38,523 nucleotides of DNA from NCBI GenBank assembly GCA_030833315.1, contig JAURHM010000031.1, positions 1-38,523 on the forward strand, read 5' to 3'. Positions 1,931 through 11,401 of this stretch are shown in pieces. This stretch comes from Burkholderiales bacterium (GTDB taxonomy: Bacteria > Pseudomonadota > Gammaproteobacteria > Burkholderiales > SG8-41). The notes under the pieces are model-generated. The model did not search any database and was not told where the DNA came from. It saw nothing but the letters and a program-made list of their open reading frames with translations. Both the position numbers and the translations under genes were made by a program. Position 1 is the stretch's first letter, and each line of letters starts with the position of its first letter.

Positions 1931-3178
1931 ATGCACAAGCACCCGATACGATCCCTTGCCGTGGCACTGACCGCCGCTCTTCTCGTCGCAGCCTGTGGCC
2001 AGGAGGCTCCGCCGACCGCACCCAAAGCCGAAGCGCCGAAGGCGCCGGAAGTGCTCACCGTCAAAATCGGTTCCGCATCGCCACTGACCGGCCCGCAGGC
2101 GCATATCGGTATCGACATCCGCAACGGCGTACAACTGGCAATCGAAGACGCCAACGCAGCGAATGTCGAAATCGCTGGCAAAAAAGTGAAATTCGAAATG
2201 GTTGCGGAAGACGATGAAGCGAATCCGACCAAGGCGACGACCGTCGCGCAAAAACTGGTTGATGCAAAAGTTGTCGCCGTGATCGGCCACTTCAACTCCG
2301 GGGCGTCGATACCGGCTTCGAAGATTTATTCCGACGCCGGCATTCCGCAAATCTCGCCGTCATCCACCAATCCGAAATACACCGAACAGGGATTCAAGAC
2401 CACCTTCCGCGTGGTCGCCCATGACGGCCAGCAGGGTCCGACGCTCGCACGGTTTGCAGCAAAAACGCTGCAGAGCAAATCGGTCGCGGTGATCGACGAC
2501 AGCACCGCCTACGGCCAAGGCCTCGCCGACAACTTCGAAGCCACCGCAAAATCGCTGGGCATCAAGGTGCTTGCGCGTGAGCACACCACGGACAAGGACA
2601 CCGACTTCAAGGCGATCCTCACCAGGATCAAAGGCAAGAAACCCGACCTGATCATGTTCGGCGGCATCGACCCGCAGGCTGCACCGATGATCAAACAGAT
2701 GAAAGATCTGGGCATTCAGGCCAAATTCATCGGCGGCGACGGCATGCAGACGCCGAACTTCATCAAACTTGCCGGCGACGCCTCCGAAGGCGCGATGGCC
2801 TCGATCCCCGGACTGCCGAAAGACCAGATGCCCGGCGGCAAAACCTTCCTCGACAAATACAAAACCAAATTCAACCAGGAAGTAGAGCTGTTCGCGCCGA
2901 TGGGCTACGACTCGGTGATGGTGTTCATCGAGGCGATGAAGCGCGCCGGCTCCAGCGATCCCGCAAAGTTCCTGCCCGAAGTCGGCAAAACCACTTACAA
3001 CGGCGTCATCGGCCCCATCGCCTTTGATGACAAGGGGGATCTGAAAAACGGCCCGATCACATTGTACGTTGTCAAAGGCGGCAAATGGGAGCCCTTGGAA
3101 ACGGTGAAGCCCGAAACCGGTGCCGGCACGGCCCCCGCAGCGGCGCCGGCACCGGCTCAAGAAACCGCAAAGAAATAA
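1931..3178 (+). CDS. livK: Branched-chain amino acid ABC transporter, substrate-binding protein (LivK/LivJ family)
   Basis: This 415-residue type I periplasmic binding protein delivers its ligand to the LivHM permease. After the signal sequence it has the family pattern: KIGSASPLTGPQAHIG, the ...GHFNSGASIPAS ligand loop, ISPSSTNP, FRVVAHDGQQG and VAVIDDSTAYGQG. The N-terminus ends in a lipobox, V19-A20-A21-C22, so the protein may be lipid-anchored rather than free in the periplasm as in E. coli LivJ/LivK. The last 25 or so residues are an Ala/Pro-rich tail that looks like a flexible linker. The ATG at 1931 has GGAG at 1921-1924. Leucine, isoleucine and valine are the default substrates, but this family also carries other amino acids, amides and aromatic acids, so the ligand is not proven. 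It is the first gene of the operon and is separated from livH by a hairpin. Confidence 0.92.
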   Translation: MHKHPIRSLAVALTAALLVAACGQEAPPTAPKAEAPKAPEVLTVKIGSASPLTGPQAHIGIDIRNGVQLAIEDANAANVEIAGKKVKFEMVAEDDEANPTKATTVAQKLVDAKVVAVIGHFNSGASIPASKIYSDAGIPQISPSSTNPKYTEQGFKTTFRVVAHDGQQGPTLARFAAKTLQSKSVAVIDDSTAYGQGLADNFEATAKSLGIKVLAREHTTDKDTDFKAILTRIKGKKPDLIMFGGIDPQAAPMIKQMKDLGIQAKFIGGDGMQTPNFIKLAGDASEGAMASIPGLPKDQMPGGKTFLDKYKTKFNQEVELFAPMGYDSVMVFIEAMKRAGSSDPAKFLPEVGKTTYNGVIGPIAFDDKGDLKNGPITLYVVKGGKWEPLETVKPETGAGTAPAAAPAPAQETAKK

Positions 3179-3195
3179 GCGACCACAACTACCAC

Positions 3196-3224
3196 GCAAC
3201 GGCACCCCTCGCAGGTGCCGTTGC
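3196..3224 (+). repeat. Inverted repeat between livK and livH
   Basis: GCAACGGCACC (3196-3206) and GGTGCCGTTGC (3214-3224) form a perfect 11-bp stem with a 7-nt loop, 17 bases after the livK stop and 11 bases before the livH ATG. There is no T-run. Such hairpins between binding-protein and permease genes commonly stabilise the upstream mRNA or partly stop transcription, giving excess binding protein. The right arm covers a possible GTG start at 3215, which argues for livH starting at 3236. Confidence 0.75.
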
Positions 3225-3235
3225 CGTCTCTGAAC

Positions 3236-4159
3236 ATGGATATTTTTGCGCAGCAACTGATCAACGGCTTGGTGCTGGGCAGTATCTATGCCCTGGTCGC
3301 GCTCGGTTACACCATGGTCTACGGCATTCTCGGGCTGATCAATTTCGCGCACGGCGACATCACCATGATCGGCGCGCTGGTCGCGTTGACCATCCTGCAG
3401 GGGCTGGCGGCAGCCGGCCTTCCGGCGCCGGTGCTGCTGGTCATCGCCGGAGGCGGCGCGATGATCGTATGTGCTGCGCTGGGACTGTCGATTGAACGTG
3501 TCGCCTACCGGCCACTGCGCCGCGCACCGCGGCTGGCGCCGCTGATCACCGCGATCGGCGTATCGATACTGCTGCAGTATTCGGCAGCGCTGGTCTGGGG
3601 CAAGCAGTACATTGCCTTGCCCAAACTGCTAGAACCGTCGGCCATCGACATCGCCGGCGCGCAGCTGACCACGCTGCAACTAGCGATTTTCCTGCTGGCC
3701 TGCGCGATCATGGCCGCCCTGCTCTGGTTCATCAAAACCAGCCGTATGGGCCGCGCGATGCGCGCAACGGAACAGAACCCGGATGTCGCTGGCCTGATGG
3801 GCGTCAATACCAATAGCGTCATCGCATTCACCTTCGTGCTCGGCTCGGCGATCGGCGCCATCGCCGGCCTGATGATCATTCTCTACTACGGCATCGGCCA
3901 TTACTTCATGGGCTTCATGCTCGGCCTCAAGGCCTTCACCGCGGCAGTTCTGGGCGGCATTGGCAATGTCGGCGGTGCCGTGCTGGGCGGACTGTTGCTC
4001 GGCGTCATCGAAAGCCTGGCCTCTGGTTATATCGGCGATCTCAGCGGCGGCGTACTGGGCAGCAACTACCGCGACATTTTTGCTTTTCTCGTGCTGGTAC
4101 TGGTGCTGGTGCTGCGGCCTTCAGGACTGCTCGGCCAGCAAAACGGAGACCGCGCTTGA
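3236..4159 (+). CDS. livH: Branched-chain amino acid ABC transporter permease LivH
   Basis: This 307-residue inner-membrane permease of the LivH family has about eight hydrophobic segments. It begins with the very typical MDIFAQQLINGLVLGSIYAL and has the signature GYTMVYGILGLINFAHGD. The EAA-like loop KAFTAAVLGGIGNVGGAVLGG, which contacts the ATPases, lies near the C-terminus. It forms the translocation pore together with LivM. The ATG at 3236 matches the usual family start. The in-frame GTG at 3215 lies inside a hairpin and would add an atypical MPLPSLN. Neither has a strong ribosome-binding site. Its stop TGA overlaps the TTG start of livM, so translation of the two permeases is probably coupled. 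Confidence 0.93.
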   Translation: MDIFAQQLINGLVLGSIYALVALGYTMVYGILGLINFAHGDITMIGALVALTILQGLAAAGLPAPVLLVIAGGGAMIVCAALGLSIERVAYRPLRRAPRLAPLITAIGVSILLQYSAALVWGKQYIALPKLLEPSAIDIAGAQLTTLQLAIFLLACAIMAALLWFIKTSRMGRAMRATEQNPDVAGLMGVNTNSVIAFTFVLGSAIGAIAGLMIILYYGIGHYFMGFMLGLKAFTAAVLGGIGNVGGAVLGGLLLGVIESLASGYIGDLSGGVLGSNYRDIFAFLVLVLVLVLRPSGLLGQQNGDRA

Positions 4160-5232
4160 ATATTGCCGCGCTGTTCAACGACCGCCATTACCGCTGGTTC
4201 GCCTGGGGCGCGGTGGTACTGGTGTTGCTGGCACTGCCTTTCATCACCGAAGCCGTGCTCGGCCGCAGCTGGGTGCGCATCATCGCCGTCTCCCTGCTGT
4301 TCGTGATGCTCGCGCTGGGCCTCAACATCGTCGTCGGATTCGCCGGCCTGCTTGATCTGGGCTATATCGCGTTCTTCGCCGTCGGCGCCTACAGTTACGC
4401 GCTGCTGGCCTCACCGCAGTTCGCCGTACACTGGCCTTTCCTGCTGCTGTTGCCGCTGGGCGCGGCGATTGCCGCGGTCTTCGGCATCCTGCTCGGCGCG
4501 CCGACGCTTCGGCTCCGCGGTGACTATCTCGCCATCGTCACGCTCGGCTTCGGCGAAATCATCCGTGTCTTTCTCAACAACCTTAACCGGCCGGTCAATA
4601 TCACCAACGGTCCGCAGGGCATCACGCTGATCGACCCGCTGCAGATGGGCGGATTTTCACTGGCGCAAACCCACTCGTTCGCCGGGCTGACCTTCTCGCC
4701 GGTGCACAACTATTATTTTGTGTTTCTGGTCTGCGCCGCTTTGACGATCGCACTGTCGCTGCGCTTGCAGAATTCGCGTATCGGCCGCGCCTGGGTCGCG
4801 ATCCGCGACGACGAGTTGGCCGCCTCGGCGATGGGTATCAATACCCGCAACGTCAAACTGCTGGCCTTTGCGATGGGTGCGACTTTCGGCGGCGTTGCCG
4901 GCGGCCTGTTCGCGTCATTCCAGGGCTTCATCAGCCCCGAGAGTTTTCAGCTGATTGATTCGATCATGGTGTTGTGCATGGTGGTGCTAGGCGGCATGGG
5001 CAATGTCGCCGGCGTCGCGCTCGGCGCCGTGCTGCTGACCGCGCTGCCGGAAGCGCTGCGATATATCGGTCCGCTGCAACAGCGCTGGTTCGGCGGCGTG
5101 CTGGTGGATCCCGCCGACCTGCGCATGCTGCTGTTCGGTCTGGCACTGGTGCTGATGATGCTGTTGCGTCCGGAAGGCCTGTGGCCCGTGCGGCGGCGCC
5201 AGGCCGGCAAAGGGAACGCCGATGCCGGCTGA
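4156..5232 (+). CDS. livM: Branched-chain amino acid ABC transporter permease LivM
   Basis: This 358-residue membrane partner of LivH has about ten hydrophobic segments. The family block LGLNIVVGFAGLLDLGYIAF is present. So are the segment TLRLRGDYLAIVTLGFGEI and the ATPase-contacting loop VLCMVVLGGMGNVAGVALGA. The start is a TTG at 4156, overlapping the livH stop as TTGA, with GGAG at 4145-4148 as a well-placed ribosome-binding site; no ATG lies nearby. The basic C-terminal tail (RRRQAGKGNADAG) faces the cytoplasm and overlaps the first codons of livG by 11 bases. It is a core component of the same five-gene transporter. Confidence 0.93.
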   Translation: MNIAALFNDRHYRWFAWGAVVLVLLALPFITEAVLGRSWVRIIAVSLLFVMLALGLNIVVGFAGLLDLGYIAFFAVGAYSYALLASPQFAVHWPFLLLLPLGAAIAAVFGILLGAPTLRLRGDYLAIVTLGFGEIIRVFLNNLNRPVNITNGPQGITLIDPLQMGGFSLAQTHSFAGLTFSPVHNYYFVFLVCAALTIALSLRLQNSRIGRAWVAIRDDELAASAMGINTRNVKLLAFAMGATFGGVAGGLFASFQGFISPESFQLIDSIMVLCMVVLGGMGNVAGVALGAVLLTALPEALRYIGPLQQRWFGGVLVDPADLRMLLFGLALVLMMLLRPEGLWPVRRRQAGKGNADAG

Positions 5233-5995
5233 CATCCTGCTGGCCGCCAGCGGCATCTGCAAACATTTCGGCGGACTGGCTGCGCTGTCCGATGTATCGA
5301 TCAGCGTACGCCGCGGCGAAATTTTCGGCCTGATCGGCCCCAACGGTGCCGGCAAAACCACGCTATTTAATGTGCTGACCGGACTCACTGTGCCCGACGT
5401 CGGCAAGCTGACATTCGACGGCCGGCGCATCGAAGGACTGAAGCCACACGCAGTCGCTGGCCACGGCATTGCGCGCACTTTCCAGAACATCCGTTTGTTC
5501 GGCAGCATGACCACGCTGGAGAACGTCATGCTCGGCCGCCATCTGCGCTCGAACACCGGAGTGCTGGGCGCAGTGTTCCGCACGCGCGCCGCGGTCGCCG
5601 AAGAACTGGCGATCACCCGCCGCGCCCGTGAACTGCTCGATTACTGCGGGCTCGCTGCACGGGCCGATGATCTTGCACGCGATCTCCCATACGGCGACCA
5701 GCGCCGGCTGGAAATCGCGCGCGCACTGGCCACCGATCCACAGTTGCTGGCTTTGGACGAACCCGCGGCCGGCATGAACGCAACAGAGACCGCGGCACTG
5801 AAAGCGCTGCTCGAACGCATCCGCGAGGACGGCATCACGCTGCTGCTGATCGAACACGACATGAAACTGGTGATGGGACTGTCACACAGCGTCGCGGTGC
5901 TCGACTACGGCGAAAAAATCGCCGAGGGTGAACCCGAAGCGGTGCAACGCAATCCGCGCGTAATCGAAGCCTATCTCGGCAGCGGTTTTGCATGA
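5222..5995 (+). CDS. livG: Branched-chain amino acid ABC transporter ATPase LivG
   Basis: This 257-residue cytoplasmic ATPase powers LivHM. The Walker A motif GPNGAGKT is at residues 39-46. The signature region PYGDQRRLEIARAL starts near 156, with the YGDQ variant typical of LivG in place of SGGQ. Walker B LLALDE is at 175-180 and the switch histidine is H212 in IEHDM. The ATG at 5222 overlaps the end of livM and is preceded by an AAAGGGA ribosome-binding site. LivG pairs with LivF as a heterodimer; the next gene follows after 12 bases. Confidence 0.95.
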   Translation: MPADILLAASGICKHFGGLAALSDVSISVRRGEIFGLIGPNGAGKTTLFNVLTGLTVPDVGKLTFDGRRIEGLKPHAVAGHGIARTFQNIRLFGSMTTLENVMLGRHLRSNTGVLGAVFRTRAAVAEELAITRRARELLDYCGLAARADDLARDLPYGDQRRLEIARALATDPQLLALDEPAAGMNATETAALKALLERIREDGITLLLIEHDMKLVMGLSHSVAVLDYGEKIAEGEPEAVQRNPRVIEAYLGSGFA

Positions 5996-6007
5996 ACAAG
6001 CCTCGCC

Positions 6008-6712
6008 ATGCTTGAAGTCCGCGGACTGGAAGTGACCTACGGCGGCATCCGCGCCGTCAAGGGCATAGACCTCAAAGTCGGTGCCGGCGAAGTCGTCGCG
6101 CTGATCGGCGCCAACGGTGCCGGCAAAACAACAACGCTCAAAGCGCTGGCAGGATTGTTGCAGCCCAAAGCCGGGCGCATCACCTACAAAGGCGCTGATG
6201 TCACCGGTAAACCGGCGTATCATCTGGTCCGTCACGGATTGGCCCTGGTACCCGAGGGCCGCGGCATGTTTCCGCGGCTGACGGTTGCCGAGAATCTGGC
6301 GATGGGCGCTTATATCCGCCACGACGCCGCCGGCATTGCCGCCGATACCGAGCGGGTGTGTACGCTGTTTCCCCGTCTGGCGGAGCGACGCGAACAGCTC
6401 GCCGGTACGCTGTCCGGCGGTGAGCAGCAGATGCTGGCCATCGCGCGGGCGATGATGGGACGGCCGCAGATGCTCCTGCTCGACGAACCGAGCATGGGGC
6501 TGGCGCCGCTGATGGTGCAGAAGATTTTTGAAACGGTTCGCATGATCGCCGCCGAGGGTGTCACCATGTTGCTGGTGGAACAGAATGCCAGACTCGCCCT
6601 GGAGACCAGCAGCCGCGCCTATGTCATGGAAAGCGGCTGCATCGTACTGGCCGATGACGCAAAATCCCTGTTGTCCAATCCGCAAGTCCGACATGCCTAT
6701 CTTGGTGAATGA
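6008..6712 (+). CDS. livF: Branched-chain amino acid ABC transporter ATPase LivF
   Basis: This 234-residue second ATPase of the transporter has Walker A GANGAGKT at residues 34-41. The LivF-typical Q-loop region LALVPEGRGMFPRLTVAENL follows. The signature LSGGEQQMLAIARAM starts at 135 and Walker B MLLLDE is at 155-160. The switch position carries EQN (LVEQNA), as is usual for LivF. All catalytic motifs look intact. The stop codon is part of an ATGA overlap with the histidine kinase gene that follows, so the kinase is likely translated from the same mRNA and coupled to livF. That arrangement is unusual for liv operons. Confidence 0.95.
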   Translation: MLEVRGLEVTYGGIRAVKGIDLKVGAGEVVALIGANGAGKTTTLKALAGLLQPKAGRITYKGADVTGKPAYHLVRHGLALVPEGRGMFPRLTVAENLAMGAYIRHDAAGIAADTERVCTLFPRLAERREQLAGTLSGGEQQMLAIARAMMGRPQMLLLDEPSMGLAPLMVQKIFETVRMIAAEGVTMLLVEQNARLALETSSRAYVMESGCIVLADDAKSLLSNPQVRHAYLGE

Positions 6713-8571
6713 TCTTGATCATTAAACTGCTGCCCCAAAAATCCTGGAATCCTGCCGCGCTGAAAAACCAGGGCGCGGCCGTGTTGCAGCGTGCGCGCGC
6801 AGACGGCAACGTGCGGCTGCTGATGTTCGTAGCCGGCGCCTTTGCCCTGGTCTCGCTGCTCGGGTTCATCTATCTCAAAAGCCAGGGCGTCGATTACCGC
6901 CAGCAGAGTGAAGTTCTCGGCTACCTGCGCGAACTCAAAGAGATCGATGCACGCTGGGACCTCGAAGTACTGCGCGCGCGTGTCGAAGGTGCCTCCGGCA
7001 AAGCGCTAACGGTCGCCGACCGCGGCACGCGCGTCCCCGACCTGTTGCGTCGCCTGAAAACCGCAGCAGCTGATATTGACAGCCCGGTGCTGCAGCAGGG
7101 TCTGCCGGTACTGGTGAAAGCTTTTGAACAGAAAACCGAGTTGCTCAACCGTTACCGGGCAGCTGGTGCCACGGTGACCCAGGCGCTCGGGCGCATGGTC
7201 GCTTTTGATACCGAAATCGCCGGTCTGGTGCGCGGCGCTTGGCAAAGCGTGCCGCAGCGGGAACGGTTGGTCGCCGTCGAAAGCACTTCGGCGCTGCTGT
7301 TTGCCCATGTCATGCGTTATGCCGCAGACCCGACCGACACCGAGCGCAAAAATGTGGAAATGTTTGCGGCCGACCTGCGCAAGGCCGGCGGCGGCATGCC
7401 GGCATCACTGGGCGCTGGACTGGCGCGGATTGACGAAACGGTTCAGCAAATCCTCGGTGCGAAGCCGGTGGAAGACGAACTGTTTCAGAAAATTGCCATC
7501 GCCTCCACCGGACCGCGCATCGACAGCCTGACCGACGCCTTCAGCGCCGAAACCGCCGACGCCCAGATCGACAGCGAACGTTATCGCATTTACCTGATTG
7601 CCTATGCCGGGGCGCTGTTGATCCTCACCGGCTGGCTGCTGTCACGGCTGGCTGTCAGCTACCGTCTGCTCGAATCACGGGTGCAGGAACGCACCCGTGA
7701 ACTGTCGACGGCGCTGCACCAGCTCAAGGAATCGGAATCGCAGCTGATCCATACTGAAAAAATGTCCTCGCTCGGCCAGATGGTGGCCGGCATCGCACAC
7801 GAGATCAACACGCCGCTGGCATACGTCAAGAACAGCCTGGGTTCGGTCGCGGGCAAGCTGCCGGAAGTCAAACAGCTGATCGTCGAAACCAATAAGCTGC
7901 TGAAGCTAATGGAATCGGGAAACCCGGACCCGGACCGGCTGCAGGCGAAGTTCCGTTCTGTGCGCGAACTGGTACACCACTTCGCCGAACAACAGGCTTT
8001 GGCTGAACTCGGACAGCTGGCGTCCGACGGCCTGTACGGCATCAACCAGATTTCCGAAATTGTGTTGAACCTGAAGAACTTCAGCCGCCTCGACCGCAGC
8101 AAGGTGTCCAGCTTCAACCTGAACGAAGGTCTGGAAAGCTCGCTGCTTCTGGCCAAGCATGAACTCAAGCACCTGAAGATCAACAGGCAGTTCGGCAACA
8201 TTCCGGCCATCACCTGCTCGCCGTCGCAACTGAACCAGGTCTTCCTCAACCTGATCAACAACGCCGCGCAGGCCATCGAATCCGGCACCGGGGAACTGAC
8301 GCTGAAGACACGGGTCGAAGATGCACAGCATGTCGCAGTCGAAATTTCCGACAACGGCAAGGGCATCCCGCCGGAAATCATGTCAAAAATATTCGACCCG
8401 TTTTTCACCACAAAAGCCGTCGGCAAGGGCACCGGTCTTGGACTGTCAATTTCCTATAAAATCATTGAACAGCACGGCGGTAAAATCAGTGTTAATTCCG
8501 TGGTCGGAAAAGGCACGACATTCACCATCCTGTTGCCGCTGGCCCCCCCGGTTACTGCAGGACTCGAATAA
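6709..8571 (+). CDS. Membrane sensor histidine kinase, co-translated with the liv transporter
   Basis: This is a 620-residue orthodox sensor kinase. A hydrophobic segment at about 35-56 and a second at about 294-312 bracket an extracytoplasmic region of about 235 residues. That region looks wholly alpha-helical and resembles the DAHL class of helical sensor domains (a tentative call). A short coiled-coil linker ([25 protein letters not shown]) leads to the H-box [20 protein letters not shown] with H364 as phospho-acceptor. The dimerisation region carries a helical insert of about 70 residues. The ATPase domain has an N-box ([12 protein letters not shown]518), a G1 box DNGKGI (548-553), FDPFFTTK and a G2 box [10 protein letters not shown] (572-581). 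The ATG at 6709 overlaps the livF stop as ATGA. It has no receiver of its own; the obvious partner is the receiver-bearing Ser/Thr kinase 6 bases downstream. The signal sensed is unknown. Confidence 0.9.
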
Positions 8572-8577
8572 GAATAA

Positions 8578-10497
8578 ATGGCCACTGACCACCCGCAGAA
8601 GATCGGTAAATACGAGATCCAGGGCGTCCTTGGTCGCGGCGGGATGGGTATCGTCTACAAGGCATTCGATCCGGCGATACACCGGCAAGTGGCAATCAAG
8701 ACCATTACCAAATCGGCGATGGACCCTTCGGAACTGCAGTATGCGATTGCGCGTTTCCGTCACGAGGCTCAAGCCGTCGGCCGGCTGACCCATCCGCGAA
8801 TTGCTGCGATTTACGATTACGGTGAAGACGAGAATCTGGCGTATATCGTGATGGAGCTCGTGCACGGACGCTCGCTGCACGACCACCTGCAGAACAATGC
8901 CAAGTTTGATCTTCCGGAAGTCGGCGAAATCATCCGCCAGCTGTTGGACGGACTGGGTTATGCCCATGCACAGGGCGTCGTGCATCGCGACATCAAGCCC
9001 TCCAATCTGCTGATCAACGATGACGGCCGCATCAAGATCAGCGACTTCGGCATTGCCCACATCGATAATTCGTCGCTGACCCAGGTTGGCGAAATCATGG
9101 GTTCACCCGGTTATATGTCACCTGAACAGTTCACCGGCGACGAACCCGATTCGCGAACCGATCTTTACTCGGTCGGCGTCATTGCCTATGAACTGCTGGC
9201 GGGCCGTAAACCTTTCACCGGCAGCAACGTCGAAATCATGCGTCAAGTGATCGGCGAACGTCCGCCCAATCCTTCGGGATTCAATCCGCTGATATCGGCT
9301 CAGCTCGACTGGGCGACTCACAAGGCACTGGCAAAAAATCGTGAGGAGCGTTTCCAGTCAGCGCGGGAGTTTGCACTCGCCTTTGTACAGGGCATCGCCG
9401 CCAGCGTGCGCGCAGCAAAGAACGATGATGCAGGTAACAGCGACCACACCATAACGCAGCGTCTGGATCCTAAGCTGGTGTCGGCCGCACGGGTTATTGC
9501 CGGGCTGAACGTGCCCACGCGCGGAACAGCCTCTGCTCCTGCCTCAGGTGTTGCACACGGCGTAACGGTTACGCCCACATTTGAAACTGGCGGGAAAAAA
9601 GCCAAGCTGCTGTTCGTCGACGACGAAGAACGCATTCTCACTGCTTTGCGTTCGGTGTTCCGCAATCAGTACAACGTATTTACTGCGAGCAGCGGCCCGG
9701 AAGCCATGGAGTTCATGAAGCGCTTCAATCCGCATGTGGTGATCAGCGATCAGCGCATGCCGGAGATGACAGGTGTCGAATTCCTGCGTGAGGTGAGGGA
9801 CATTGCGCCGCACACAGTGCGCATCCTGCTGACCGGTTATTCGGATCTGGCTTCCATCGTCGGCTCAATCAACGACGGGGAAGTCTTCCGTTTTGTCAGC
9901 AAACCCTGGGACAACGCCGAAATCCAGAAAACCATCGGTGAAGCCGCAGCCATCGCACTCGAACTGGCGGACATGGCGACCAGCCCGGTTATCCTGCCGG
10001 AAAAACTCGACTGTGGCGTGCTGGTGATCGAATCCGGACAGAGCGTGTACCGCGCCACTAACGAATTGATCGGCGGGGTCTGCCCGGTATTGCATGCGCC
10101 GGATATCGACCCTGCACTGACAGTTCTGCAGGAACATGAGATCGCAGTCATCGTTGCCGACATCGGCCACGGCGACCAGACTTCACTGACCGCCTTCAAG
10201 CTGCTGAAGCAAGATCACCCCGAAATCCTCGCCATCGTGATGACCGAGGCTTCGGATTCGGAACTGGTGATCGACCTGATCAACCAAGCCCAGGTGTTCC
10301 GTTTCCTGACCAAGCCGCTGAACCTGAAAATGCTGCAGCAGCATGTGCAGGCGGCGCTGGCGCGTTACCAGTCTTTCCGCAAATCACCGAAGCTGCTCAA
10401 GCAGCACCGCGTTGCGGCGGCCCGCGGTGGCGACAGTTCGCTGCTGGAAACACTGCGCGGCAGAATTCACTCTATCAAATCCTGGTTCGGCCGCTGA
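8578..10497 (+). CDS. Hybrid Ser/Thr protein kinase with two C-terminal receiver domains
   Basis: A 639-residue fusion. Residues about 11-270 are a complete Hanks-type (PknB-like) kinase: glycine loop GRGGMG (19-24), lysine K41 in VAIK, catalytic HRDIKPSN (136-143), DFG (156-158) and SPEQF (181-185). After a low-complexity linker, a receiver domain (about 341-462) has the acidic pair D348/D349, phospho-acceptor D391 in ISDQRMPEMTG, T419 and K442 in SKPW, resembling receivers of RpfG-like regulators. A second receiver-like domain (about 478-598) keeps an aspartate (D528) and lysine (K579 in TKP), but has E485-S486 where the acidic pair should be, so it is probably degenerate. There is no transmembrane segment and no DNA-binding or cyclic-di-GMP domain. 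Its position right after a histidine kinase suggests that phosphotransfer to D391 controls the Ser/Thr kinase. Substrates are unknown. It ends 7 bases before convergent hemF. Confidence 0.9.
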   Translation: MATDHPQKIGKYEIQGVLGRGGMGIVYKAFDPAIHRQVAIKTITKSAMDPSELQYAIARFRHEAQAVGRLTHPRIAAIYDYGEDENLAYIVMELVHGRSLHDHLQNNAKFDLPEVGEIIRQLLDGLGYAHAQGVVHRDIKPSNLLINDDGRIKISDFGIAHIDNSSLTQVGEIMGSPGYMSPEQFTGDEPDSRTDLYSVGVIAYELLAGRKPFTGSNVEIMRQVIGERPPNPSGFNPLISAQLDWATHKALAKNREERFQSAREFALAFVQGIAASVRAAKNDDAGNSDHTITQRLDPKLVSAARVIAGLNVPTRGTASAPASGVAHGVTVTPTFETGGKKAKLLFVDDEERILTALRSVFRNQYNVFTASSGPEAMEFMKRFNPHVVISDQRMPEMTGVEFLREVRDIAPHTVRILLTGYSDLASIVGSINDGEVFRFVSKPWDNAEIQKTIGEAAAIALELADMATSPVILPEKLDCGVLVIESGQSVYRATNELIGGVCPVLHAPDIDPALTVLQEHEIAVIVADIGHGDQTSLTAFKLLKQDHPEILAIVMTEASDSELVIDLINQAQVFRFLTKPLNLKMLQQHVQAALARYQSFRKSPKLLKQHRVAAARGGDSSLLETLRGRIHSIKSWFGR

Positions 10498-10504
10498 GGG
10501 CTTG

Positions 10505-11401
10505 CTACAGCCAGTCTTTCGCGACCAGAAAATCCGTGTAAAGCGCGGCTTCGGGAGTTCCTGCTTCGGGTTGCCAGTTGTAACGCCAGTTCACGACCGG
10601 CGGCAATGACATCAGGATCGATTCGGTGCGCCCGCCGGACTGCAGACCGAACAGCGTACCGCGATCGAACACCAGATTGAATTCAACGTATCGTCCGCGG
10701 CGGTAGGCCTGGAAATCGCGCTCGCGTTCACCGTAGGGGACGTCGCGCCGGCGCTCGATGATCGGCGCATAAGCCGGCAGAAAATGGTCGCCGACACTAC
10801 GCGTCAGCGCAAAGCAGTGTTCGAAATCAGGTTCGCCGAGATCATCGTAGAACACACCACCGATGCCGCGCGGTTCATTGCGATGCTTCAGGAAAAAATA
10901 ACGGTCGCACCATTGCTTGAATTTCGGGTGATATTCCGCACCGAATGGCGCCAGCGCATCACGGCAGGTCCGGTGAAAATGCGCCGCATCCTCGGCGAAT
11001 CCGTAATAAGGCGTGAGATCCATGCCGCCGCCGAACCACCACACCGGATCGACGCCGCTTTTTTCTGCGATAAAACAGCGCACGTTGAGATGCACGGTGG
11101 GCACATAGGGATTGCGCGGGTGCAGCACCAGCGACACACCCATTGCCTGGAATGACCGGCCGACAAGTTCGGGGCGCACTGCGGAAGCCGAAGGCGGCAG
11201 GTTGTCGCCGAATACATGGGAGAAACCGACGCCGCCGCGCTCAAACAGATTTCCGCCTTCAATCAGTCGCGTAATACCGCCGCCGCCCTGCGGCCGCTCC
11301 CAAGCATCACGGATAAAATTGCCGCCGTCGAGTTCGGACAGTTTGCTGACAATACGGTCCTGCAGTCCCGTCAGATAGGTTTTGACTGCGGCGGTGTCCA
11401 T
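10505..11401 (-). CDS. hemF: Oxygen-dependent coproporphyrinogen III oxidase
   Basis: This 298-residue cytoplasmic homodimeric enzyme oxidatively decarboxylates two propionates of coproporphyrinogen III to give protoporphyrinogen IX in haem synthesis, using O2. The length is normal. Family signatures are present: [17 protein letters not shown] near residue 49, VHLNVRCF near 103, [15 protein letters not shown] at 121-135, and [10 protein letters not shown] near 181. The ATG at 11401 has AGGAC about 8 bases upstream. It lies 21 bases behind purD as the last gene of the dusB-fis-purH-purD-hemF run. An aerobic oxidase implies life with oxygen, in agreement with the ubiquinone gene nearby. Confidence 0.95.

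Follow-up and report, generated by a model that had tools for sequence, protein, structure and literature searches.

Can a sensor histidine kinase (HK) directly control a Hanks-type Ser/Thr kinase, and, if so, how could aspartate phosphorylation switch such a kinase? The question is raised by an open reading frame (8578..10497, + strand) in a 38,523-nucleotide stretch of DNA from a Burkholderiales bacterium (GCA_030833315.1, contig JAURHM010000031.1, positions 1 to 38,523; below, the window is this whole stretch), which encodes a Ser/Thr kinase followed by two receiver domains, REC1 and REC2, with six bases between it and the end of an HK gene. An initial annotation of the frame had proposed that an active and a pseudo-receiver behind the kinase work as a hinge or dimer switch, possibly bridging His-Asp and Ser/Thr signalling. 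We examined how the genes are arranged, which domains they encode and how well these are conserved, together with the constant partnership of the two genes and the relatives that lack the kinase, and found that the pairing of HK and kinase-REC-REC protein is conserved in many related bacteria, where the sensor probably controls the kinase directly. The protein is built as follows.

8578..10497, + strand: Ser/Thr kinase-REC1-REC2 (pseudo-receiver) protein, 639 residues (open frame, motif residues, Pfam)
8611..9387, + strand: Hanks-type kinase domain, residues 12-270 (K41, E63, HRD 136-138, N143, DFG 156-158, PE 182-183)
9424..9594, + strand: linker between kinase and REC1, residues 283-339, low-confidence (pLDDT <50) and poorly conserved
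9604..9963, + strand: REC1, canonical receiver, residues 343-462 (D348, D349, D391, T419, K442)
9748..9750, + strand: codon of D391, predicted REC1 phospho-acceptor (D in 96/96 orthologues)
10015..10377, + strand: REC2, pseudo-receiver, residues 480-600 (E485-S486, D528, T556, F576, K579)
10030..10035, + strand: codons of E485-S486 at the position of the acidic DD pair (DD1, E485, acidic; DD2, S486, non-acidic)

In Pfam the protein matched Pkinase (E 5.5e-54) and, in two stretches, Response_reg (whole-protein E 1.8e-31). All hallmarks of a Hanks-type kinase are present (the catalytic Lys, alphaC Glu, HRD, DFG and the PE of the activation segment), with K41, H136-R137-D138 and D156-F157-G158 exactly where the initial annotation had placed them, and the catalytic K, E, D, N and D are complete in 95 of 96 orthologues. 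The predicted output is the Ser/Thr kinase activity of this domain, which would be directed at substrates for phosphorylation. The domain is of the PknB type: NF033483 scored 305.2 bits over the kinase part, and the best structural match to a full-length model, in a search informative on the kinase part only, was PknB of M. tuberculosis (Z 25.2, root-mean-square deviation (rmsd) 4.3, 258 residues). Unlike the PASTA kinases of this type, however, the window protein stays under the 450-bit NF033483 cut-off; it has no PASTA match in the Pfam scan and no strong hydrophobic segment. Two variants were noted among the orthologues. HQD replaces HRD in 9 alignment rows, which are genus g21 copies adjoining liv genes; and the orthologue L178 (G365:C35, frame 2916-6365) is a natural pseudokinase, with HRD changed to HGA and DFG to GFG, an intact REC1 and an adjacent HK.

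The domain combination recurs far beyond chance. A first search for relatives yielded 79 loci, 28 of which (L039-L066) are orthologues with receivers, one being clipped by a contig end; the other loci match essentially in the kinase. Extended with 74 genomes of the family and 349 of the order, the set comprises 96 distinct orthologous sequences with the same domains, with kinase and receivers in the same frame in all 96; three of them end at contig edges before REC2. The surveys scored the best three candidates per genome in the order, class, phylum and HK searches (the best 11-12 in searches with REC1-REC2 only), and the order survey used thresholds of E 1e-90 for the Ser/Thr kinase, which can miss diverged members, and E 1e-70 for the HK. 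Many of the surveyed genomes are metagenome-assembled genomes (MAGs), and close relatives are mostly Betaproteobacteria or Burkholderiales MAGs. The contigs of L042, L053, L063 and L067 are titled Bordetella parapertussis; their proteins fall among environmental relatives, and the labels look wrong. Receivers were absent from every out-of-order match at 1e-85 among the best three candidates of each of 369 class and 398 phylum genomes, and among the genomes surveyed kinase-REC-REC orthologues are found in a single bacterial order only.

The gene just upstream in the window encodes the predicted partner.

6709..8571, + strand: sensor histidine kinase, predicted cognate partner (DAHL, HisKA-like region, HATPase_c; two hydrophobic segments, about 33-58 and 293-314)
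7798-7800, + strand: codon of H364, candidate phospho-His of the HK (motif A-H364-E-I-N-T)

An HK homologue lies directly upstream and on the same strand in 95 of the 96 orthologues, where the HK frame either overlaps the kinase match or stops no more than 152 bases from it; the contig of the 96th, L184, extends just 2 bases further upstream. L064 has an HK that is broken into two frames. Among the 349 genomes of the order, 52 had a match to the Ser/Thr kinase, 54 to the HK, and 50 to both. One of the two genomes with the Ser/Thr kinase only, G347, holds a different kinase without receivers; the other, G156, holds a broken copy (L181, 4523-5974, + strand), a kinase-REC-REC gene interrupted by a stop near the activation segment, where no HK was found at threshold. 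Evolutionary distances of HK and Ser/Thr kinase correlate at 0.93 over 94 pairs, to which shared descent also contributes, and in genus g21 the pair was duplicated as a pair, giving the order HK-kinase-HK-kinase (L159-L163, L165, L168, L175 and L183, the last clipped by its contig). The candidate phospho-His is H in all 94 aligned HKs, always in the form H-E-x-x-T. Pfam HisKA falls below cut-off in the window HK (23.2 vs 26.9 bits); in 28 HKs scanned at E 0.001, HATPase_c was matched in 28, HisKA in 27 and DAHL in 24. Thus, as in a two-component pair, an HK with a conserved phospho-His and ATPase is encoded beside a receiver protein. The HK may also dephosphorylate its partner, as H-E-I-N-T fits the phosphatase motif H-E/D-x-x-T/N given in passages of PMC12570481. 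A bridge from His-Asp to Ser/Thr signalling is strongly suggested by the invariably adjacent HK, and also by the HK and REC-REC pairs without a kinase described below.

REC1 is canonical: all five active-site positions (acidic DD pair, D, T/S and K) are occupied in the window by the residues that the initial annotation had named, and over the 96 rows D348, D349, D391 and T419 are each found in 96/96 and K442 in 95/95 with the residue present. REC2 had been described as lacking its acidic pair, which is half right for the window: S486, at DD2, is non-acidic, and D528 and K579 are present as claimed, but E485, at DD1, is still acidic. Across the family, DD1 of REC2 is acidic in 78/93, DD2 in 9/90, and both in 7/93. 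REC2 retains D528 in 92/93, Thr or Ser at T556 in 89/93, and at K579 Lys in 82/93 or Arg in 11/93; D, T/S and K are kept together in the window and in 80/93 rows, and the Y-T coupling residues in 84/93. The surroundings of the site also set the two receivers apart: position D+4 is Pro in 93/96 for REC1 vs 0/93 for REC2, and T+1 is Gly in 96/96 for REC1 vs Ala or Gly in 13/93 for REC2. With one sequence per 70% cluster (34 clusters) REC1 remained invariant, D528 was found in 34/34, and DD2 was acidic in 2/31. This family-wide pattern rules out that the defect of REC2 is a sequencing slip or private to the window genome. DD2 is a direct metal ligand of receivers, and a pseudo-receiver, in the usage of the relevant passages of PMC12632262, is a recognised receiver without key catalytic residues. 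REC2 is a pseudo-receiver by that usage, having Ser at DD2, a receiver fold and a Response_reg match over the PF00072 cut-off when searched alone (E 8.6e-10, 39.2 vs 30.2 bits).

Structure prediction, with alignments of 24 of the 28 orthologous loci of the first search plus the window, gave a REC1-REC2 model (25-row alignment; mean pLDDT 79.8, pTM 0.67) of two (beta-alpha)5 domains. In REC2, strand 3 ends at D528 and strand 4 at T556, while K579 follows directly after strand 5. Profile search and monomer model thus agree that both C-terminal domains have the receiver fold, and a different fold for the C-terminal half is ruled out by the Response_reg matches, the model and the structural matches. 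The proposed arrangement, a complete kinase followed by a canonical and a degenerate receiver, is borne out by both the residues and the orthologue alignment. The alpha4-beta5 face of REC2 has a mean entropy of 0.86 vs 1.84 for the rest of the domain (p 3e-5, with positions treated as independent); alpha4 is a conserved helix in REC1 too. For alpha1, the usual docking helix for HKs on receivers, mean entropy is 0.81 in REC1 vs 2.21 in REC2. In a Foldseek search with the REC1-REC2 model, the top ten hits were all PleD chains (E 1.9e-14 to 8e-11, TMq 0.45-0.49). Like the window protein, PleD of Caulobacter has a phosphorylatable receiver followed by a degenerate one and an enzymatic output, and it is the best solved-structure match by Foldseek E-value; the output of PleD, however, is GGDEF, of which there is none among the Pfam matches of the window protein, whereas here it is a Ser/Thr kinase on the N-terminal side of the receivers, and identity is 18-20%. 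In PleD, according to part of PMC12632262, receiver phosphorylation alters the contacts between receiver and pseudo-receiver, with dimerization and cyclase activity as the result.

The REC1-REC2 module also exists without the kinase. Four genomes of the order that matched the HK only (G119, G162, G186 and G224) encode an HK with the same transmitter and a CBS domain, without a DAHL match, and beside each lies a REC-REC protein that aligns to residues 339-341 to 613-628 of the window's kinase-REC-REC protein. With REC1-REC2 only as the query, full-length tandem matches were found in 11 out-of-order genomes among 198 of the class, Gammaproteobacteria in GTDB terms, and in the order a tandem without kinase fusion was found in 5/215 genomes. 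In L257 the full-length query matched residues 339-620 only, with no kinase part. G121 has two stand-alone copies, with open frames of 346 and 405 residues, which are outside the 13 modules we examined. In those 13, REC1 is intact throughout, and the REC2 aspartate is Glu in nine, Gly in one and Asp in three, DD2 being non-acidic in those three. The second receiver is degenerate, then, in both fused and stand-alone branches, by different substitutions. An HK with the same transmitter adjoins 11 of the 13; for L254 and L255 no HK was found within ~1.4 kb of upstream DNA. In an unrooted tree, 34 fused modules and 13 stand-alone ones lie on opposite sides of a single branch (support 99/98), which fits one fusion or one separation. 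Since kinase-free relatives with an HK exist, REC1-REC2 is an independent regulatory cassette; the kinase has the appearance of an output attached to it. In genus g55 the stand-alone HK/REC-REC pairs have a CheX-domain gene (L240, 7199-8167, - strand) and a chemoreceptor gene (L241, 2574-4247, - strand) in their vicinity, hinting at a link to chemotaxis for the kinase-free form.

In the window, the two genes follow a set of transporter genes.

1931..3178, + strand: livK-like substrate-binding protein, first gene of the putative operon (NCBIfam match below curated cut-off)
3215..4159, + strand: livH-like permease (NCBIfam, below cut-off)
4156..5232, + strand: livM-like permease (NCBIfam, below cut-off)
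5222..5995, + strand: livG-like ATPase (NCBIfam, below cut-off)
6008..6712, + strand: livF-like ATPase, overlapping the start of the HK gene by 4 bases (NCBIfam)
10505..11401, - strand: hemF, convergent, bounding the unit (450 bits, cut-off 297)

From 1931 to 10497 the livK-H-M-G-F-like genes, the HK gene and the kinase gene lie on one strand with overlaps or short gaps, from which we infer a single operon. By NCBIfam, with scores below the curated cut-offs, the putative transporter is nearest to the Liv proteins for branched-chain amino acids. Rfam at gathering thresholds found nothing in the window, and a promoter scan gave 4 sites vs 3.1 expected, no better than chance; the best promoter-like site of the scanned region (1814-1842, + strand) is ahead of livK, in a scan whose site count is not above chance. 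Leaving aside one unit with too little sequence beyond the HK, 94 of the 95 units with an HK could be judged, and liv genes are directly upstream of the HK in 59 of these. Liv-linked arrays account for nine more, namely eight second copies, where liv is upstream of the first copy, and L064, where livF lies beyond the split HK. The remaining 26 have other neighbours, which rules out the Liv transporter as a general input; genes typed in some of them encode lumazine-binding (riboflavin-synthase-like), YgjP-like, pyridoxal-phosphate (PLP) decarboxylase, GGDEF and MFS proteins, metal P-type ATPases and a second Ser/Thr kinase, and one gene had no match at all. A second Ser/Thr kinase with a cyclic-nucleotide-binding domain (L192, 8207-9490, - strand; also L063, 1856-3139) immediately precedes the HK in one orthologous locus, and the genome of the window encodes a similar protein elsewhere (L003).

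We consider it probable, in general terms, that these proteins form a dedicated two-component system in which a Ser/Thr kinase serves as the output of the response regulator and the HK controls this kinase through REC1. In such a system the membrane-bound HK would sense a periplasmic cue, as yet a presumed ligand, via DAHL, and in the window it might also monitor the state of the Liv-type transporter whose genes precede its own. The HK would autophosphorylate at H364 and pass the phosphoryl group to D391 of REC1, from which, to judge from the H-E-I-N-T motif, it could also strip it. REC2, predicted to lack normal metal binding, would act as a pseudo-receiver adaptor: phosphorylation of REC1 would change the packing of REC1 and REC2 via their alpha4-beta5-alpha5 faces, as in PleD, and the repacking would either pair two kinase domains or free one from inhibition, setting, in whichever direction, the Ser/Thr phosphorylation of the substrates. 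Pairing of kinase domains is a known activation route for PknB-like kinases. This route from HK through REC1 and repacking to pairing or release of the kinase is favoured because of the match to PleD, the conserved face of REC2, its variable alpha1 and the pairing-activated PknB-like kinases. The PleD-like dimer version taken alone falls a little short of an even chance.

Several observations weigh against this proposal. Across the two domains together the rmsd to PleD is ~7, which means that their relative placement does not superpose; a high Foldseek rank is to be expected for any long chain with tandem receivers; and VIA-align Z puts a single receiver first (3kcn, Z 22.3 over 134 residues), whereas PleD reaches Z 20.5 over 258. 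As single receivers rank level or above by Z, the match supports the plan of the protein rather than its geometry. The full-length model is weak (pLDDT 67.0, pTM 0.40) and silent on dimers. The conserved face of REC2 may partly reflect the receiver subclass, as alpha4 is also conserved in REC1. D, T/S and K together in 80/93 rows are more than an inert adaptor needs, and the REC2 site is formally complete in 4/93 rows (L186, L204 and the second copies of L160 and L161), all four among the seven rows with acidic residues at both DD1 and DD2. Kinase activity is not always the output, given that L178 combines a dead kinase with an intact REC1. Finally, neither Liv nor DAHL is a general input, because liv linkage was not seen in 26/94 units and DAHL was not found in 4/28 HKs.

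The dead kinase of L178 is also consistent with a flow in the reverse direction, in which the Ser/Thr kinase phosphorylates its own receivers or the neighbouring HK and tunes phosphotransfer, the real output being another protein bound by REC-REC. Stand-alone REC-REC proteins without an attached output imply that the module can presumably act in trans, and cases of Ser/Thr kinases that act on response regulators have been reported, for example StkP-ComE (PMC6010298) and DosR (PMC12919924). With the kinase catalytically complete in 95/96 and in one frame with the receivers in 96/96, however, we regard this explanation as unlikely. Less likely again is that REC2 binds a ligand, for example a cyclic dinucleotide, on its alpha4-beta5-alpha5 face, so that the kinase integrates REC1 phosphorylation with a small molecule bound by REC2. 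The pseudo-receiver of ShkA binds c-di-GMP on its beta5-alpha5 surface (passages of PMC7010744 and PMC12632262), and in REC2 R575, D560, N569 and P580 are invariant (93/93) and R596 is found in 90/93, on or near the face; but the first four match positions that REC1 conserves as well (R438, D423, N432 and P443) and so look like features of the receiver subclass. The retained REC2 site itself, with D528 in 92/93, T/S at 556 in 89/93 and K/R at 579 in 93/93, and formally complete in the four rows named above, would suit a slow but genuine second receiver, in which loss of DD2 weakens phosphorylation and makes a two-step or threshold switch; substitutions of DD, T or K need not ablate phosphorylation, according to part of PMC12632262. 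We think this improbable, as REC2 has Pro at D+4 in 0/93 and Ala/Gly at T+1 in 13/93, against 93/96 and 96/96 for the equivalent REC1 features, and in the stand-alone relatives its aspartate is Glu in 9/13 and Gly in 1/13.

Control of the kinase by the HK through REC1, then, remains our preferred reading, and known systems resemble it in parts. Fungal Rim15 kinases likewise combine a protein kinase with a C-terminal receiver, often a pseudo-receiver, but they are eukaryotic and, in the portions of PMC8510515 and PMC12632262 that treat them, a single C-terminal receiver is described. The receivers themselves are of the type found in NosR/RpfG-type REC-HD-GYP regulators: NF053512 matched in two stretches, the best being REC1, and HupR and HD-domain regulators are among the PDB receivers nearest in sequence. 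The window protein, however, has no HD-GYP and scored 201.3 bits against the 400-bit cut-off of NF053512. NosR has an operon-encoded HK partner as well, as stated in part of PMC12570481. Ser/Thr and His-Asp signalling also meet in one protein in cyanobacterial proteins of the HstK type, which are reportedly Ser/Thr kinase-histidine kinase fusions; there the partner is a histidine kinase and not receivers.

We found no description of the HK-kinase-REC-REC family in the literature searched, the output-domain listing of Galperin 2010 being outside that scope. In the main text of a 2005 survey of bacterial Ser/Thr kinase architectures, as far as the portion consulted goes, the word 'receiver' is absent (PMC1262709), and a large two-component census, by its methods as excerpted, excluded proteins annotated as Ser/Thr kinases (PMC4558063), so surveys may have missed such proteins. 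A broader proposal, which we advance only tentatively, is that a portable cassette of HK and receiver/pseudo-receiver, which occurs alone elsewhere in the class, became joined to a Hanks kinase in a single event within the window's order. The product would be a hard-wired relay from His through Asp to Ser/Thr, frequently located after Liv-type genes, and the pseudo-receiver would serve in it as a clamp, converting phosphorylation of Asp into pairing of the kinase. Where two-component systems and bacterial Ser/Thr kinases interact, the best-known case is a response regulator modified by a Ser/Thr kinase. The prediction here runs the other way: the response regulator would have the Ser/Thr kinase as its output, and its sensor is encoded by the adjacent gene. 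The family would thus offer a clean pair of proteins in which to study how a Hanks kinase can be switched by phosphorylation of an aspartate, with the kinase-free relatives as a natural control for the REC-REC module.

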